A stretch of DNA of 36,602 nt, taken from Flavobacteriales bacterium. Lineage in GTDB: Bacteria > Bacteroidota > Bacteroidia > Flavobacteriales > TMED113. A program made the translations under genes and the position numbers. Below the pieces are notes generated by a model, which was not told the origin of the DNA, ran no database searches, and saw only the letters and a list, made by a program, of their open reading frames with translations. The stretch spans positions 1 to 36,602 of the forward strand of contig PBKX01000003.1 of NCBI GenBank assembly GCA_002722215.1, given 5' to 3'. Positions 14,101-20,816 of this stretch are shown here, one piece after another. The first letter of the stretch is position 1. Each line of letters begins with the position of its first letter.

Positions 14101-14858
14101 TGAAGATTATCTCTTATAACATAAATGGAATTCGTGCTGCGATAAAAAAGGGACTAGTAAATTGGCTACAATCTTATTCGCCAGATATTGTTTGTTTACA
14201 AGAATTAAAAGCTAATGTAGATCAATTTGATGTTTCTGTTTTTGAAAAATTGGGTTATTCTTGTTTTTGGTATTCTGCTAAGAAAAAGGGGTATAGTGGT
14301 GTTGCAGTATTATCAAAAATAAAACCTAAAAATGTTGTATTTGGTTGTGGGGTTAATGCGTTTGATGATGAGGGCCGTATTATTAGGGCTGACTTTAATA
14401 ATCTGAGTGTTTTTTCATGTTACTTTCCCTCTGGTAGTAGTGGTGAAATTAGGCAGGCTTTTAAAATGGATTTTTTAGAGTTTTTTTACACTTTTATAAA
14501 AAAGTATCACCTTCAAAAAAATATTTTGGTTTGTGGTGATTATAATATCTGTCATAAACCTATTGATATTCATGACCCAATTAGAAACAAATACTCTTCT
14601 GGATTTCTAATCGAAGAAAGAGAATGGATGTCTGCGTTTTTAAAATTAGGTTTTGTAGATACTTTTCGGGAAAAAAATAGTTCCCCAAACAAATACTCTT
14701 GGTGGAGCTACCGGGCAAATGCCCGGCTTAATAATAAAGGTTGGCGAATCGACTACCATATATTAAGCGATAATCTGAAACAAAAGATTAAAAATGTAGA
14801 TATATTAAGTGACGTACATCACTCTGATCATTGTCCTGTTTTTCTAGAATTAAATTAA
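14100..14858 (+). CDS. xth: Exodeoxyribonuclease III (AP endonuclease family)
   Basis: A Mg-dependent repair nuclease that cleaves at abasic sites and trims 3' ends. The 252 residues carry the full EEP-fold set: YNINGIRAAIKKG, CLQELKA (metal-binding Glu near residue 34), GDYNICHKPIDIHDP (Asp/Asn active site near 150), WWSYR, RIDYHILSD and the terminal HHSDHCPVFLEL (catalytic Asp-His). It ends the holB operon and overlaps the convergent collagen-like gene by 4 bp. Confidence 0.95.
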   Translation: MKIISYNINGIRAAIKKGLVNWLQSYSPDIVCLQELKANVDQFDVSVFEKLGYSCFWYSAKKKGYSGVAVLSKIKPKNVVFGCGVNAFDDEGRIIRADFNNLSVFSCYFPSGSSGEIRQAFKMDFLEFFYTFIKKYHLQKNILVCGDYNICHKPIDIHDPIRNKYSSGFLIEEREWMSAFLKLGFVDTFREKNSSPNKYSWWSYRANARLNNKGWRIDYHILSDNLKQKIKNVDILSDVHHSDHCPVFLELN

Positions 14859-15754
14859 GGGCAATCCACTTCCTCGCCTAAAGTTAAGACCATTGATAGT
14901 CCAAATTCTATTGTTACAGAATAACATGTTCCATTTCCATCATTTATAGTAAGATTACTTAGGTCTAAGTATGTTGCTGGGGGGCCTGGTGGGCCCTGTT
15001 CGCCCTGTTCGCCCTGTTCGCCCTGTTCGCCTTGGGGGCCCTGGCTTAAAGCTTCTAAAAAATCTTGTACTGTTCCTGTATTACCCTCTTGTATCCAAAG
15101 CTGATATGTGTCCAGGCCAAGAATAAACTCCTCTATTGTCCCATCTCCCCCATTTTCAATCCAAGAGTCATAAATGCTCGGACCCTGTTCACCTTGTGGC
15201 CCAGGGTTGCCAACTAATCCTTGTTCCCCCGGAATTCCCTGTGGCCCGGGGGGGCCCTGTGGCCCAGTATTTCCTTGTGGTCCTACTGGTCCTGTTGTTC
15301 CAGCGGGTCCCTGTTCGCCCTGTTCACCTTGTGGCCCAGGGTTGCCCGGATTTGCACTTGTTTCAGAAAATAGTGCATATGGAACGCTTCTAAGCTGTGT
15401 GGAGCCCATGACCAAATAATCTTCTCCCATCTCTGCAATTCCTATTGTTAAAAAATGTGTGGAATTTCCCCAATCTATATTCTCAAAATTATCTCCCGGC
15501 ATTGGATCTCCGGCCCCAATTGCTAAGCTTACTAAGCCAATATTGTTTGTGGTGACAGAATAGTGTTGTTCTCTATATACTGGAAAATTGTCTGGGCTAT
15601 CTTCTGAAATACTAACCGAAATGTTAATCGTTTCATTAGCTCTGGGTTGCCAATTCATGTCACGAACAACCGTTTGATATGAAAAGGTTTGCGGTACTTG
15701 TCCCTGACAAATTGTAACTAACAACAATAAAAAAATAATATATCTATACTTCAT
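14855..15754 (-). CDS. Secreted collagen-like Gly-X-Y repeat protein
   Basis: A 299-aa exported protein with signal peptide [19 protein letters not shown]. Residues about 20-130 match a domain often seen at the N-terminus of Bacteroidota surface proteins ([20 protein letters not shown], ending [11 protein letters not shown]). A Gly-X-Y block rich in GPQ/GEQ follows (about 137-192), then two linker units with the [18 protein letters not shown] and [18 protein letters not shown] pattern, then a second GEQ block and a short C-terminal beta region with two cysteines. The GEQ block is encoded by exact 9-bp repeats. It has no T9SS tail. Last gene of the minus-strand secretion operon; surface role inferred, function unknown. 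Confidence 0.8.
14994..15029. repeat. Four perfect 9-bp tandem repeats in the collagen-like gene
   Basis: The plus strand shows CCCTGTTCG four times in a row. On the coding strand it reads as in-frame GEQ triplets. Because the unit is 9 bp, gain or loss of copies would change collagen length without a frameshift. Confidence 0.9.
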
Positions 15755-15755
15755 A

Positions 15756-16241
15756 TTAATTAAACTTTTGAATTTTATAAACTTGCTTGTTATTGGTTTT
15801 GAAATATATTTCTAAAAAATAAATTCCACTAGAAAAGTGGGATAAATCTATAGTTTGATTTTCTAGTCCAATAGTCTCTAGTGACGAAAACAGTTCTCTG
15901 CCGTTCATGTCTTTTATCTTTAGGCCTAGTGTCTTTTCTGTGTTACCATCAATATATATTATATCCTTTGCTGGGTTTGGATAAATATTAATGATCGCAT
16001 TTTCCGGCACTTCATTAATCATTGAAATTTGGTAATTTTCTTGATGAAATCCCTGTGTTAAAACACTTTCACCCTGCACAAAAGTTTCGATCGCTATCTC
16101 TCCCAAAGAGAAGCATAGGTTATAGTTATCCTGTGTAACGGTTCCTCCTGACGAAGAAATAAGTTGCGGAGTTATAATTGATGACTGCGCAAACAGAAAA
16201 CTAAAAGAAGACCAAAATAAAAATGTATATATTGTTCTCAT
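15756..16241 (-). CDS. Small secreted protein with T9SS type A sorting domain
   Basis: A 161-aa protein with a signal peptide (MRTIYTFLFWSSFSFLFAQ). The short mature segment (ISSSGGTVTQDNYNLCFSLGEIAIET then LTQGFHQENYQ) is a motif common at the front of T9SS proteins in Bacteroidota. A type A C-terminal sorting domain begins at INIYPNPAKDIIYI (near residue 85) and ends with FLEIYFKTNNKQVYKIQKF. Almost nothing lies between signal and sorting tail, so it is nearly a bare cargo tag. It starts 8 bp after the monooxygenase gene and ends 1 bp before the collagen-like gene. Function unknown. Confidence 0.8.
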   Translation of the reverse strand: MRTIYTFLFWSSFSFLFAQSSIITPQLISSSGGTVTQDNYNLCFSLGEIAIETFVQGESVLTQGFHQENYQISMINEVPENAIINIYPNPAKDIIYIDGNTEKTLGLKIKDMNGRELFSSLETIGLENQTIDLSHFSSGIYFLEIYFKTNNKQVYKIQKFN

Positions 16242-16249
16242 TAACTTAT

Positions 16250-17875
16250 TTATTCTTTAACAAACCCCTCTATTGCCACTTCTTTATCTGATTGTGTTTT
16301 AATAAAGTATTTTCCCGGGGAAAGGTTTGTGATATCTAATTTAATACTATTTCCGTCTGATTGAAAGTTTTCATTAAAAATAACTTCCAATAGTCTTCCT
16401 TGCGCATCATATAATTGTGTATTTAAATTTAATAGCGATTCAAAGTCAGAGGTAATATTAATTTGGTTTGTTGCTGGATTCGGGAAAAGGCTAAGTGATA
16501 CTGTTTCGTTTTCAACAAAGATTGTTTGGTTGTCTATCCCCAAATAGATGTTTTCGTCTCCCTCCTCATAAGGAATATAATAAATGGGACAAAAAAACAT
16601 TTCATCTGTTGTAAGCTCGCCCCAACCCATGTCAAAATCATTAGTATTATCATATGTTGCAATCGCCTCTATCCTTGACCCTGCCGGAATATGTTGCATG
16701 TATTCTGGGTAATAAAACCCTTGCCAATCAAAATCCCAGTCTGGAATTTTAATGATTGGAAGGGTTTCTCCACTTGGAGTTTCAGCATAAACCTCCCACG
16801 ATGTTCCCATTAAGTGAGAGTGCGGTAAAATTCCTAAAAGGCTCCAATCTTCTGGTAATTCGCAATACTGTTCCCCATACCCAACAATTTGGCCAAATTG
16901 TTGCACTGGGCCTGGTCCAAACATGTCTAAAAAATCAAAGGGGCCTGGTTGAAAATTTAAACAAGCCTCTATCTCTGTTTGAGTATTTGCAGGAATCTCC
17001 AAATCCAACCTCAGCCACATTTTCATTTGAACCTCTCTTTCTACCTCGGAAGCTGGTTTTGTAAATACGTTAATTGATGAACGATCCCACTCATCTATTG
17101 ATGAGGGCGCATAATGAATTTGACAAAGCAGGTCTGCTCCTGCTGGAATTTTCATGCCTAATTCACCATTCCAAACAATAGGATCCATCCCTGGAGCATA
17201 TCCGCCTAAAAAAACATAGTCGTTGGGACTAACCCCATCTAGACTAAACCCCCCAAAAGATTCATAACCTAAAACATCTGGTGAATCTGCATCTAGCGCT
17301 GCGGCAGTTCCCGTAACATCAACCATCATAATTGCATGATGTACAGCCTCTCTATTGTCCGGTCTAAATTCAATTGATTTTATGTATGTATCCTCTGTAA
17401 ACCCTGTTGGAAAAACAAAAACCCTATAATCGTCTGCATTGTTCCCTTCAATAAAATACTCTTCTTCCATTTCAAACACATAGTCAGGGTCTCCTATTGC
17501 TGAGCCCACGGGAAATGTTGGAATTTCTGTCTCTAGAGAAGGGTCGCCCTCTATCATTCCTCCTTCAACCCAGTCTGCTATTAATTGTTTTTCTTCTTCT
17601 GTTAAAAAACGTTGATCTAGCATCGAGTGGGGGGTGTACGTTGGGTCTGGAGGCCATGGAGGCATATATCCACTCTCTGTTACATAAATTAGATTTGTTC
17701 CTTGTGATGCAACCTCCTCATAATTAGTGAAAGATGACGGCCCGGCTTCACCAGACCGATGACACTCTGTACACTTATTATATATAATTGGTGATATGTG
17801 TTCCGAAAATGTTATTTCAGTTCCTGTTTGCCCAATTAGTATCTGGCCTATCAATAATAACGTCCAACATCTCAT
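16250..17875 (-). CDS. Secreted heme c / type II copper monooxygenase-like protein with T9SS tail
   Basis: The 541 residues combine three parts. A signal peptide and c-type cytochrome segment come first, with CTECH at 35-39 and a possible Met ligand in YMPPWPP near 71. A peptidylglycine-monooxygenase-like di-copper module follows: the His pair in EAVHHAIM (179-180), His in CQIHYAP (253), HxH in LPHSHLMG (351, 353), and a Met in DEMFFCP (425) that could complete the second copper site. A T9SS type A sorting tail begins near 460 (LFPNPATNQINI). Known relatives hydroxylate C-H bonds using ascorbate; here the heme could feed electrons instead (inference). Substrate unknown. It lies 11 bp downstream of the redoxin lipoprotein gene. 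Confidence 0.82.
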   Translation of the reverse strand: MRCWTLLLIGQILIGQTGTEITFSEHISPIIYNKCTECHRSGEAGPSSFTNYEEVASQGTNLIYVTESGYMPPWPPDPTYTPHSMLDQRFLTEEEKQLIADWVEGGMIEGDPSLETEIPTFPVGSAIGDPDYVFEMEEEYFIEGNNADDYRVFVFPTGFTEDTYIKSIEFRPDNREAVHHAIMMVDVTGTAAALDADSPDVLGYESFGGFSLDGVSPNDYVFLGGYAPGMDPIVWNGELGMKIPAGADLLCQIHYAPSSIDEWDRSSINVFTKPASEVEREVQMKMWLRLDLEIPANTQTEIEACLNFQPGPFDFLDMFGPGPVQQFGQIVGYGEQYCELPEDWSLLGILPHSHLMGTSWEVYAETPSGETLPIIKIPDWDFDWQGFYYPEYMQHIPAGSRIEAIATYDNTNDFDMGWGELTTDEMFFCPIYYIPYEEGDENIYLGIDNQTIFVENETVSLSLFPNPATNQINITSDFESLLNLNTQLYDAQGRLLEVIFNENFQSDGNSIKLDITNLSPGKYFIKTQSDKEVAIEGFVKE

Positions 17876-17886
17876 AATAATTCCAT

Positions 17887-18522
17887 TTAATAATTAATAA
17901 AACAGCCTATGGCTGTCGTTTCAAAATACACAATTTCTTGATCATTAACAACATTGGTTAACACCTCAAATAAATAATGTTCTGTTGGTGGGCTCCAATC
18001 TCCCAATGCCTCATAACTATTGTCTATCATTCCCCGATAAATTAACTCCCCATTTAATTCGACAAAAACTTCTGGCGTAACAATAGGTAAATAGTTTTGT
18101 GTATATGGACCTGGCTCATTGTTTTCTTCACTATAGTCTGGTGTTACTGCAAACGGTATGTCATATTTGACAACAAAATTTGACAAACTGCCTGCTGTAG
18201 ATAAAGAATTTGGAGAAAAGCCCCGAAATACCATATTGTGCCCCAGTGTGTCACAAAAATATCTATATGTATTTCTAAGTGGTCCACACATATATTGTGC
18301 AATCGGGCAATTTTCATAAAGAAAAACTGTTACCATTAATCCTATATTATTTGGCTTTGGATCACAAATAGATTCACAGTCTTCAAGTGTTGAAAATTCG
18401 CCGTCTACATTTTCTGTGCAATCCCCAAGACAAGAGTATCTTAATTCTGTATCAACATTTGTTTCACATCCAAAAAATAATAAGAACAAGAAAAACACCC
18501 AGCCTTTTAGTAAATTGTCCAT
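17887..18522 (-). CDS. Redoxin-like (thioredoxin-fold) lipoprotein
   Basis: A 211-aa protein with a lipoprotein signal (LFLLFFGC). Next is a short Cys-rich module, YSCLGDCTENVDGEFSTLEDCESIC, in a style common in marine Bacteroidota proteins. A redoxin-like domain follows, with ENCPIAQYMC in the active-site position (no CXXC; the two Cys are separated by six residues) and TPEVFVELNGELIYRGMID, which corresponds to the cis-Pro strand and a conserved YRGxID segment. The end ETTAIGCFI also matches redoxin domains that, as I recall, are fused to copper monooxygenases in Planctomycetes. First gene of the secretion operon; probably partners the monooxygenase. Confidence 0.72.
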   Translation of the reverse strand: MDNLLKGWVFFLFLLFFGCETNVDTELRYSCLGDCTENVDGEFSTLEDCESICDPKPNNIGLMVTVFLYENCPIAQYMCGPLRNTYRYFCDTLGHNMVFRGFSPNSLSTAGSLSNFVVKYDIPFAVTPDYSEENNEPGPYTQNYLPIVTPEVFVELNGELIYRGMIDNSYEALGDWSPPTEHYLFEVLTNVVNDQEIVYFETTAIGCFINY

Positions 18523-18690: not shown

Positions 18691-18725
18691 ATAATTTGAA
18701 CTATATTGTTGTTGATAAATTAAAT

Positions 18726-20816
18726 ATGTCCCGGAGAAGAAAACGCGAATTGATCGATTTAAAAGAGAATATTCTAAATATTCTGAAATCTAGAACAGAG
18801 AATTTGAACCCTAAACAAATTGCCTGGGAATTAAACCTGAGGGGAAGTCAATATCAAAAAAAAATAACAAAAGCTATTTCAGATCTAGAAAAAAGTGGCC
18901 TAATTATCCGAAAAGAGAAGTATAAATTCCGATGTAATCAATCTTATCAACTAGTTGTTGGCACTATTGATATAAATAAACGAGGAGACGGATACGTTCA
19001 ATGCGGTGATTATAATGAAGATATTTTTATTAAAAAAAGTAACCGACTTAATTCTCTAAACAATGATACCGTTTCAGTTGAAATTATAAAAAATAGCCGC
19101 CATGTGCTAACCGGAAAAATAGAAAAAGTTTTGAAAAGAGGTCAAAATAAATTTATTGGTACTATTGATGACAATGGTAAAAACATTTTTTTTATTCCAG
19201 AAAATGATAAGGTCGGTTCTGATTTTTTTATTCCAACAGAATCGCTGAATGGAGCAAAACATAAAGATCGGGTTATCATTCAGCTTCTAGATTGGCCCGT
19301 GTCAGCTGGATGTCCTTTTGGAACTGTTATCCGAGTTCTTGATAACAACCCAAGCCTAAAAGCGGCTATTAGCTCTAGTGTTGAGGTTTTTGGAATACGA
19401 AATGAGTTTTCCAAAACAATTGGTGAAGAATTAAAGCATATTTCTAGTAAAATAAAAAAATCCGAAATTACTAAACGAAGAGATTTCCGAGAAGACATTA
19501 CTTTTACAATTGACCCAAAAGATGCTAAAGATTTTGACGATGCCCTGTCAATTAAATTTTTGCCCAACAAAAAAGTTCAAATTGGGGTTCATATTGCTGA
19601 TGTTTCACATTATGTCCCGGTTGGCTCTGAAGTTGACAATGAAGCTTTCTTAAGAGCCTTCTCTGTTTATTTTCCGGGAAAAGTAATTCCCATGTTGCCA
19701 GAAAAGCTATCCAATGAAATATGCTCATTGCGACCAAACGAAGACAAACTCTCTTTTTCTATTGTTTTTGAGGGTAGAGAGGGCGCGTCTGAATTAAAGG
19801 CGGTCTGGTTCGGCAAAGGAATTATTAATTCTGATTATAGGTTTCATTATGATGAGGTGGAAGATGTGTTATTGAAAAAAAGAGGGGGGTTTTATAAAGA
19901 ACTAGAAACACTAAATCAAATAGCACTGAATTTTCGATCCAAAAGGATGGAAAATGGCTCAATTGATTTTTGTAGAAAAGAAATTTGTTTTCAATTAAAC
20001 AATTTCAATGAGCCAACTCACTTAATTGAAAAAATACCGCTTCAAGCACATAAATTAGTTGAAGAGTTTATGTTATTAGCAAACAAAGCTGTTGCTAATA
20101 AATTAAATCGGGGCATCTATCGGGTTCATGATTTGCCTTGTGCTGATCAGTTAGAAGACGTTGCTAGATATTTAAAAAATTCTGGTTTTTCTGTACATTT
20201 AAATTCTAAAAAAAAGGATCTACCTATCAGAATAAATGCTATTTTAAAAAAACCCGGCATCAATGTCGATGTGTTTCAAAATCTAATTTTACGAGCTATG
20301 TCCAAGGCCTCTTATAGTACTCAAAATATAGGTCATTATGGACTGGGGTTCGCAAAGTATATGCATTTTACCTCTCCCATTCGACGATATGCCGACCTAA
20401 TAATACACAGGCTTCTTTTTAAGCACATTAATAGTGAGCAATATCATGTTCGTGGATTAGAAAAAAAATGTGCTCATTTTTCCAGTCTAGAAAAATTATA
20501 TGTTGATGTTGAACGAAAAATAAATAAATTTGTCCAATTGAAGCTGTTAGAAAATTCTGTTGGAAAGATGTTTTGTGGCACAATTTCTAGTATTGTAAAG
20601 TGGGGGGTTTATGTAGAGCTTAAAGGCGGAAGAGGAGAGGGGCTGATTCCAATAAAACAGTTTACTGAAGAAAAGTATTATCATAATTCCGATTTGTTTT
20701 CATTAATTAATCGAAAAAATGGACATAAATACATGTTGGGTGATGATGTTTCTGTGAAAATAAAATCTATTAACCTAGTCAAAAACGAGCTGGATTTGGC
20801 GCTTGTTAAATTATGA
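18726..20816 (+). CDS. rnr: Ribonuclease R
   Basis: A processive 3'-to-5' exoribonuclease of the RNase II/R family that degrades structured RNA. I use the ATG at 18726 (696 aa), which starts a basic MSRRRKRELIDLK segment, rather than the TTG 30 bp upstream given by the track. Domains in order: N-terminal winged helix (about 15-75), cold-shock domains, the RNB catalytic domain with TIDPKDAKDFDDALSI (metal-binding Asp cluster near residue 265) and HFTSPIRRYADLIIHR, and a C-terminal S1 domain (GTISSIVKWGVYVEL). It overlaps the next gene by 4 bp (ATGA). Confidence 0.94.
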   Translation: MSRRRKRELIDLKENILNILKSRTENLNPKQIAWELNLRGSQYQKKITKAISDLEKSGLIIRKEKYKFRCNQSYQLVVGTIDINKRGDGYVQCGDYNEDIFIKKSNRLNSLNNDTVSVEIIKNSRHVLTGKIEKVLKRGQNKFIGTIDDNGKNIFFIPENDKVGSDFFIPTESLNGAKHKDRVIIQLLDWPVSAGCPFGTVIRVLDNNPSLKAAISSSVEVFGIRNEFSKTIGEELKHISSKIKKSEITKRRDFREDITFTIDPKDAKDFDDALSIKFLPNKKVQIGVHIADVSHYVPVGSEVDNEAFLRAFSVYFPGKVIPMLPEKLSNEICSLRPNEDKLSFSIVFEGREGASELKAVWFGKGIINSDYRFHYDEVEDVLLKKRGGFYKELETLNQIALNFRSKRMENGSIDFCRKEICFQLNNFNEPTHLIEKIPLQAHKLVEEFMLLANKAVANKLNRGIYRVHDLPCADQLEDVARYLKNSGFSVHLNSKKKDLPIRINAILKKPGINVDVFQNLILRAMSKASYSTQNIGHYGLGFAKYMHFTSPIRRYADLIIHRLLFKHINSEQYHVRGLEKKCAHFSSLEKLYVDVERKINKFVQLKLLENSVGKMFCGTISSIVKWGVYVELKGGRGEGLIPIKQFTEEKYYHNSDLFSLINRKNGHKYMLGDDVSVKIKSINLVKNELDLALVKL

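Follow-up and report, generated by a model that had tools for sequence, protein, structure and literature searches.

How would a copper hydroxylase of the PHM/DBH type obtain its electrons in a bacterium, and what might a redoxin encoded beside it contribute? PHM and DBH, from animals and other eukaryotes, are the classic examples of copper enzymes driven by ascorbate. The locus that raises these questions lies in the window, by which we mean the whole 36,602-nucleotide stretch of Flavobacteriales DNA that was analysed. Four minus-strand genes follow one another there, 11, 8 and 1 bp apart in the ORF list, in the order redoxin lipoprotein, monooxygenase, 161-aa T9SS-tailed protein and collagen-like protein. 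An RNase R-like gene (18696-20816) flanks the block on one side, and on the other an exonuclease III-like gene has its end at 14858.

The 161-aa protein (15756..16241, minus strand), recognised by Pfam and NCBIfam, follows the monooxygenase in 8/8 family genomes. The 299-aa collagen-like protein (14855..15754, minus strand; Pfam Collagen, E=2e-13), which has Gly-X-Y repeats and is encoded by the operon's last gene, is likewise kept in 8/8. The four-gene block as a whole is conserved in the window and in 7 further genomes of its family, one flank differing in some. A genome-wide search found no second occurrence of the collagen-like protein's N-terminal domain in the window's genome, and scans of the operon for promoters and terminators found no signal exceeding that of shuffled sequence. 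That genome comprises 1.43 Mb in 39 contigs, is 81% complete and has Flavobacteriales MAGs as its closest named relatives.

Heme and copper ligand positions of the monooxygenase

The monooxygenase is 541 aa long (16250..17875, minus strand) and was described from its ORF, Pfam, NCBIfam, alignment, an AF2 model and Foldseek. Taken alone, the window proteins drew weak or no calls from Pfam and NCBIfam apart from the T9SS tail, and alignments of relatives were needed; a PDB search with the monooxygenase as a single sequence returned no match. The AF2 model has a pLDDT of 80.7, with the heme domain mostly confident. This monoheme cytochrome c domain, at residues 23-110 (17546..17809, minus strand), is helical with high pLDDT, and Cytochrome_CBB3 was found in 50/70 family members; the window protein itself scores 17.8 bits against that Pfam model, whose cut-off is 27. 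The CTECH heme-binding motif (residues 35-39; 17759..17773, minus strand), already picked out by the sequence-only reading, is a CxxCH that is invariant in 104/104 sequences reaching it. MPPW at residues 71-74 (17654..17665, minus strand), with M71 as the likely distal heme ligand, is invariant in 105/105. Across the alignment of 105 relatives, C35, C38, H39 and axial M71 are invariant wherever present, and the heme cysteine pair are the only cysteines conserved in the family. A CxxCH with a distal Met in a small helical domain, as seen in model and alignment, is what characterises a class I c-type cytochrome.

The His ligands of a PHM-like di-copper centre, claimed from the sequence together with a candidate Met, hold up in the alignment. 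The published copper ligands of DBH are His262, His263, His333, His412, His414 and Met487 (PMC4846438). H179-H180 (17336..17341) align with His262/263 as predicted CuH ligands, H254 (17114..17116) with His333 as the third CuH ligand, and H352-S-H354 (16814..16822) with His412/414 as CuM ligands, all on the minus strand and all invariant. The candidate Met is M426 (16598..16600, minus strand), invariant in 104/104 and assigned as the CuM Met ligand (DBH Met487, PHM Met314) by spacing and fold, with no aligned residue pair. All six copper-ligand positions are invariant wherever present among the 105 relatives, and the heme and copper positions are also kept in 36-37 of 37 Planctomycetota sequences, one ORF being without the heme part. 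With every ligand invariant over 105 sequences, chance is excluded. The spacings H180-H254, H254-H352 and H354-M426 are 74, 98 and 72, compared with 70, 79 and 73 in DBH (ligand numbers from PMC4846438), and the excess of ~19 residues coincides with a poorly predicted insert in the AF2 model at about residues 314-335.

A double jelly-roll PHM fold is supported by the AF2 model and Foldseek, the best 31 PDB matches of the model all being PHM or DBH (top E=5e-14, target TM ~0.64). A 70-member family profile finds human DBH (4zel, E=2e-5), with HH, HY and HxH aligned. Pfam Cu2_monoox_C gives the window protein E=0.0011 and 18.9 bits, below the cut-off of 23, which is passed by a paralogue in the same genome (29.2) and by a fused relative (24.7). 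PHM holds the peptide carboxylate with a clamp of an Arg two residues before the first CuM His and a Tyr four after the CuM Met. The equivalent positions here are L350 and P430, which vary across the 105 sequences. As the clamp is missing, the substrate should differ from that of PHM, and PAM-type amidation of peptides is unlikely.

The T9SS sorting tail noted earlier on the same protein is equally clear. A type A sorting domain occupies residues 463-540 (16256..16489, minus strand; TIGR04183 and PF18962), scoring 37.5 bits against the TIGR04183 cut-off of 23 and E=5e-13 for Pfam Por_Secre_tail. The window's genome encodes SprA of the T9SS (2580 bits), which together with an above-cut-off sorting domain is the profile of type A cargo. 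CcsA-like and ResB-like proteins for cytochrome c maturation are encoded there too, and with these and SprA in the genome the cell could both attach heme and export through the T9SS.

Among the relatives, a 1037-aa paralogue (L009:6488-9601) has a Kunitz/BPTI domain in its tail (L009:6611-6796, minus strand; PF00014, E=7.5e-12), which follows Cys-rich GCTDxxACNY repeats; the core of the protein is the same heme/copper monooxygenase. This domain is a clear one that matches many PDB Kunitz domains, and it went unreported when Pfam was run on the whole protein. Four Flavobacteriales-type loci (L043, L050, L074 and L078) have two tandem heme/copper monooxygenase genes, with a redoxin beside them only in L043. 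Two Planctomycetota genomes (G200 and G201, those of L084 and L085) hold five or six heme-copper monooxygenase copies each, mostly redoxin fusions.

The redoxin lipoprotein

Ending 11 bp before the monooxygenase, the operon's first gene encodes a protein of 211 aa (17887..18522, minus strand), which the sequence-only reading had rightly taken for a redoxin lipoprotein. Its AF2 model (pLDDT 86.7) has a PRX-like fold and is matched by Foldseek to 2ywo, 2cvb, 2ywi and 3u5r; the family profile finds the same entries, 2cvb with E=8e-23. A Pfam scan of the window redoxin gave no domain match, while AhpC-TSA, the commonest Pfam domain among family members, is found in 37/44 aligned relatives. A thioredoxin fold, a Cys-Pro active site, a conserved TPE segment and a GCxI end together place it among the Redoxin/PRX-like proteins. 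The motif of typical peroxiredoxins, PxxxT/SxxC, is absent, the surroundings of C72 reading FLYENCPIAQY.

C72 (in ENCPIAQ; 18307..18309, minus strand) is invariant in 63/63 sequences and is the candidate catalytic cysteine. The second invariant cysteine, C207 (in AIGCFI; 17902..17904, minus strand), is kept in 62/63, the remaining one having an ambiguous residue, and G206 is invariant too. In the YRGMID segment (residues 162-167; 18022..18039, minus strand) Y162 and G164 do not vary. The sequence-only reading had linked the YRGxID and GCFI segments to redoxins that Planctomycetes fuse to such monooxygenases. The fusions do occur, but a GCxI ending does not mark out a monooxygenase partner, being present also in the stand-alone solved relatives 2cvb and 2ywi. 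Given the matches to solved PRX-like proteins, YRGxID and GCxI are segments of the wider PRX-like family and no signature of a link to a monooxygenase. Such redoxins occur in 45/148 genomes of the phylum sample, mostly without a monooxygenase.

The N-terminus carries a candidate lipidation cysteine, C19 (LFFGC; 18466..18468, minus strand), with similar lipobox-like signal ends in relatives, and then a four-cysteine segment (residues 31-53; 18364..18432, minus strand) that has no Pfam match. A Kunitz reading of this segment found no support. The N-terminal Cys-rich segments of these lipoproteins, as in the window (18364-18432) and in L112 (1774-2535), vary fast. In the L112 redoxin, from a relative in G006, the segment is made of GCTDxxACNY/NDLDxDGVCDE modules, for instance of GCTDGSACNY type, as is the tail of the Cys-rich paralogue L009. 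Modules common to the L112 segment and the tail of a Cys-rich monooxygenase paralogue hint that the redoxin may be surface exposed.

Gene pairing and fusion

The gene pair recurs in other genomes. The sequence-only reading had named two results that would refute it, His residues that fail to meet in a copper site in a predicted structure and no recurrent pairing; at the level of fold, ligand alignment and gene order neither was seen. At 79 loci the redoxin is adjacent in 50 and near in 4 (54/79), fused in 3/79, absent from 15 and cut by contig ends in 7; all 50 adjacent redoxins share the strand of the monooxygenase, 43 upstream and 7 downstream. These loci were chosen as the closest matches, so the phylum sample gives a less biased view of pairing. 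There, the monooxygenase is present in 13/147 other genomes from the window's phylum (Bacteroidota), with a redoxin neighbour in 5/13 carriers, from 4/7 families, one of the five being divergent. Pairing of the two genes is common, not universal. Whole clades in the tree of relatives keep heme and copper positions without an adjacent redoxin, so the redoxin is not essential to every such enzyme.

Within the window's family the monooxygenases come as three types: Cys-rich-tailed, T9SS (that of the window) and a 450-aa lipoprotein-like form. For the Cys-rich-tailed type, which includes the paralogue in the same genome, no adjacent redoxin was seen at the family loci. For the T9SS and lipoprotein-like types the redoxin is directly upstream or N-terminally fused in 16/16 loci, drawn from the window's family plus one near relative, and in the window. 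The window's genome has two redoxins of this kind, and both adjoin a monooxygenase, with a chance of ~0.0008 for each. The two genes are adjacent in Bacteroidota, Verrucomicrobiota, Latescibacterota, Planctomycetota and Kapaibacterium-type genomes, whereas all other neighbours change, and a neighbour search over the 79 loci turned up no third gene kept from phylum to phylum. Hymenobacter neighbour clusters, considered as extra partners, were rejected as congener synteny. A plasmid search found no close copy and one distant match, in an 11.9 Mb Nonomuraea record.

A second redoxin/monooxygenase pair, seen at L010:5382-7297 and in its relatives L117-L122, has genes that mostly overlap by a few codons, and in most cases its redoxin carries CPLC (CxxC), not CPIA, at the active site. 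At L020, L026, L033 and L052 a methionine sulfoxide reductase B-like gene, named from its sequence by eye, lies within ~5 kb of the pair.

Fusion is widespread in another phylum. In a Planctomycetota set made of a phylum sample and two genomes picked for holding matches, the redoxin is fused N-terminally in 27/37 distinct monooxygenase ORFs, always in the order redoxin, heme, copper; the monooxygenase occurs in 20/59 genomes of the Planctomycetota sample. Fusions are found also in Poribacteria and in the window's own family (L123 and L125). The latter stand far from the Planctomycetota and Poribacteria fusions on the tree, where the fused state needs 3 changes, and fusion arose separately within the window's family. 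The sequence-only reading had called the window's arrangement a split version of one system. Split and fused forms both exist, but descent from a fusion is not implied; with fusions at separate places among separate-gene neighbours, the two-gene arrangement may be the ancestral one. Folding did not use an alignment that combined fused, copper-only and redoxin-only sequences, because redoxin rows seemed to be set against monooxygenase positions there, judging by a Cys without variation at position 232 of the fused protein.

Proposed mechanism and alternatives

We lean towards a model in which the locus encodes an exported, heme-tethered dicopper hydroxylase with a thiol-redox partner, the heme serving as electron donor. 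The monooxygenase would cross the inner membrane and gain heme c at CTECH/M71 plus two coppers, and the type IX system would export it to the cell surface. CuM would hydroxylate a substrate C-H bond with O2, as in PHM/DBH, at the cost of one electron per copper. In PHM each copper receives one reducing equivalent from ascorbate, and O2 binds only at CuM (PMC6123673). As the PHM copper ligands are kept, copper chemistry like that of PHM is the most reasonable inference, and oxygen chemistry of the PHM type is, judging from the sequence, very likely. The covalent heme c domain would replace ascorbate, passing single electrons from an external reductant to the coppers. The invariant heme is the obvious point of electron entry, so the bacterial enzyme would not need ascorbate, and we consider a relay function for the heme probable. 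The redoxin, through C72 and C207, would be a dedicated thiol-redox partner whose step is maturation (heme-cysteine reduction or copper loading) or protection from peroxide. That it serves the monooxygenase in some way we hold with considerable confidence, and its permanent fusion in many lineages implies that it works close to the enzyme. A far more ambitious version would see widespread bacterial surface oxygenases using a built-in c-type cytochrome in place of ascorbate for PHM/DBH-type hydroxylation, here modifying the collagen-like fibre or T9SS protein of their own operon outside the cell, a picture that we regard as highly doubtful.

The alternative that survives best, if only as a tentative possibility, makes the redoxin purely a maturation factor, either a ResA/CcmG-like apocytochrome reductase or an SCO-like copper loader, which would act in the periplasm before T9SS export and take no part in catalysis. 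ResA structures are among its Foldseek matches, the heme cysteines are the monooxygenase's only invariant thiols, the redoxin directly precedes CxxCH in the fusions, and an exported enzyme beside a lipoprotein suits such a division of labour. Yet in most Planctomycetota copies fusion leaves the redoxin attached to the mature enzyme, one active-site cysteine with a distant second differs from the CxxC of ResA, and paralogues without an adjacent redoxin still keep the heme.

It is somewhat unlikely that the redoxin is instead a peroxidase clearing H2O2 from uncoupled copper turnover, in an enzyme otherwise self-sufficient. The two invariant cysteines would fit a peroxidatic/resolving pair, permanent fusion would fit protection on site, and the prevalence of AhpC-TSA matches points the same way, but NCPIAQ stands in place of the peroxiredoxin motif and the closest solved relatives are described as thioredoxin-like proteins, not peroxidases.

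We find it unlikely, too, that the heme domain is a sensor or structural part and that ascorbate, quinol or a similar small molecule reduces the coppers directly. Bacteria of this kind are not known to contain ascorbate, and invariance of the full CxxCH and distal Met across phyla is what a redox role predicts. On the other side, PHM and DBH run on ascorbate without heme (PMC6123673), and the N-terminal DOMON of DBH is folded like a heme cytochrome domain but lacks heme ligands (PMC4846438). That the pairing is inherited gene order with no functional link is very improbable: flanks are partly syntenic within the window's family and several clades lack the neighbour, but adjacency persists across phyla while other neighbours change, fusions arose more than once, and both such redoxins of the genome lie beside a monooxygenase, which chance would rarely give.

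Comparison with known systems

The fold, the heme domain and the redoxin are each known already, and fused relatives are present in public genomes; the window enzyme is a recurrent and apparently uncharacterised variant of a known enzyme class. A search of the open-access literature, with subscription papers and preprints outside its scope, found no paper on a heme-tethered enzyme of the PHM/DBH type or on the redoxin partner of one. If the hydroxylase with a heme donor is real, this would be a bacterial PHM/DBH branch with a covalent electron donor and a linked redoxin, self-contained and with an electron entry that can be seen optically. Such a heme-tethered branch bears on the origin of the PHM/DBH enzyme class, and its occurrence in 13/147 Bacteroidota and 20/59 Planctomycetota genomes, with multiple copies in some, suggests that it may represent a sizeable unrecognised oxidative activity at the bacterial surface.

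With PHM the window enzyme shares the fold, two copper sites (three His; two His and Met) and matching ligand spacing, whereas it adds an N-terminal heme c domain, a T9SS tail and a redoxin partner and does not conserve the Arg/Tyr clamp. DBH, the one family of known structure that the sequence profile picked up convincingly, resembles it further in that both DBH and tyramine beta-monooxygenase place an accessory domain before the copper core, but that of DBH is a DOMON without heme ligands (PMC4846438) and that of the window a covalent c-type cytochrome. The solved proteins 2cvb and 2ywo from Thermus and 2ywi from Geobacillus share the redoxin's fold, active-site Cys-Pro and GCxI end, although they stand alone and the window redoxin, a lipoprotein, carries an extra Cys-rich segment. 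We know of no link between these solved proteins and a monooxygenase. Cellobiose dehydrogenase, whose heme domain hands single electrons to LPMO, a secreted copper oxygenase, is similar in principle; the folds are unrelated and the heme there is of b type, so we offer it as an analogy only. Closest of all are the redoxin-cytochrome-monooxygenase fusions of Planctomycetota and Poribacteria, which have the same three domains, in the same order and with the same invariant residues, but as one polypeptide and, in those read, without a T9SS tail, where the window has two genes and predicted export to the surface.
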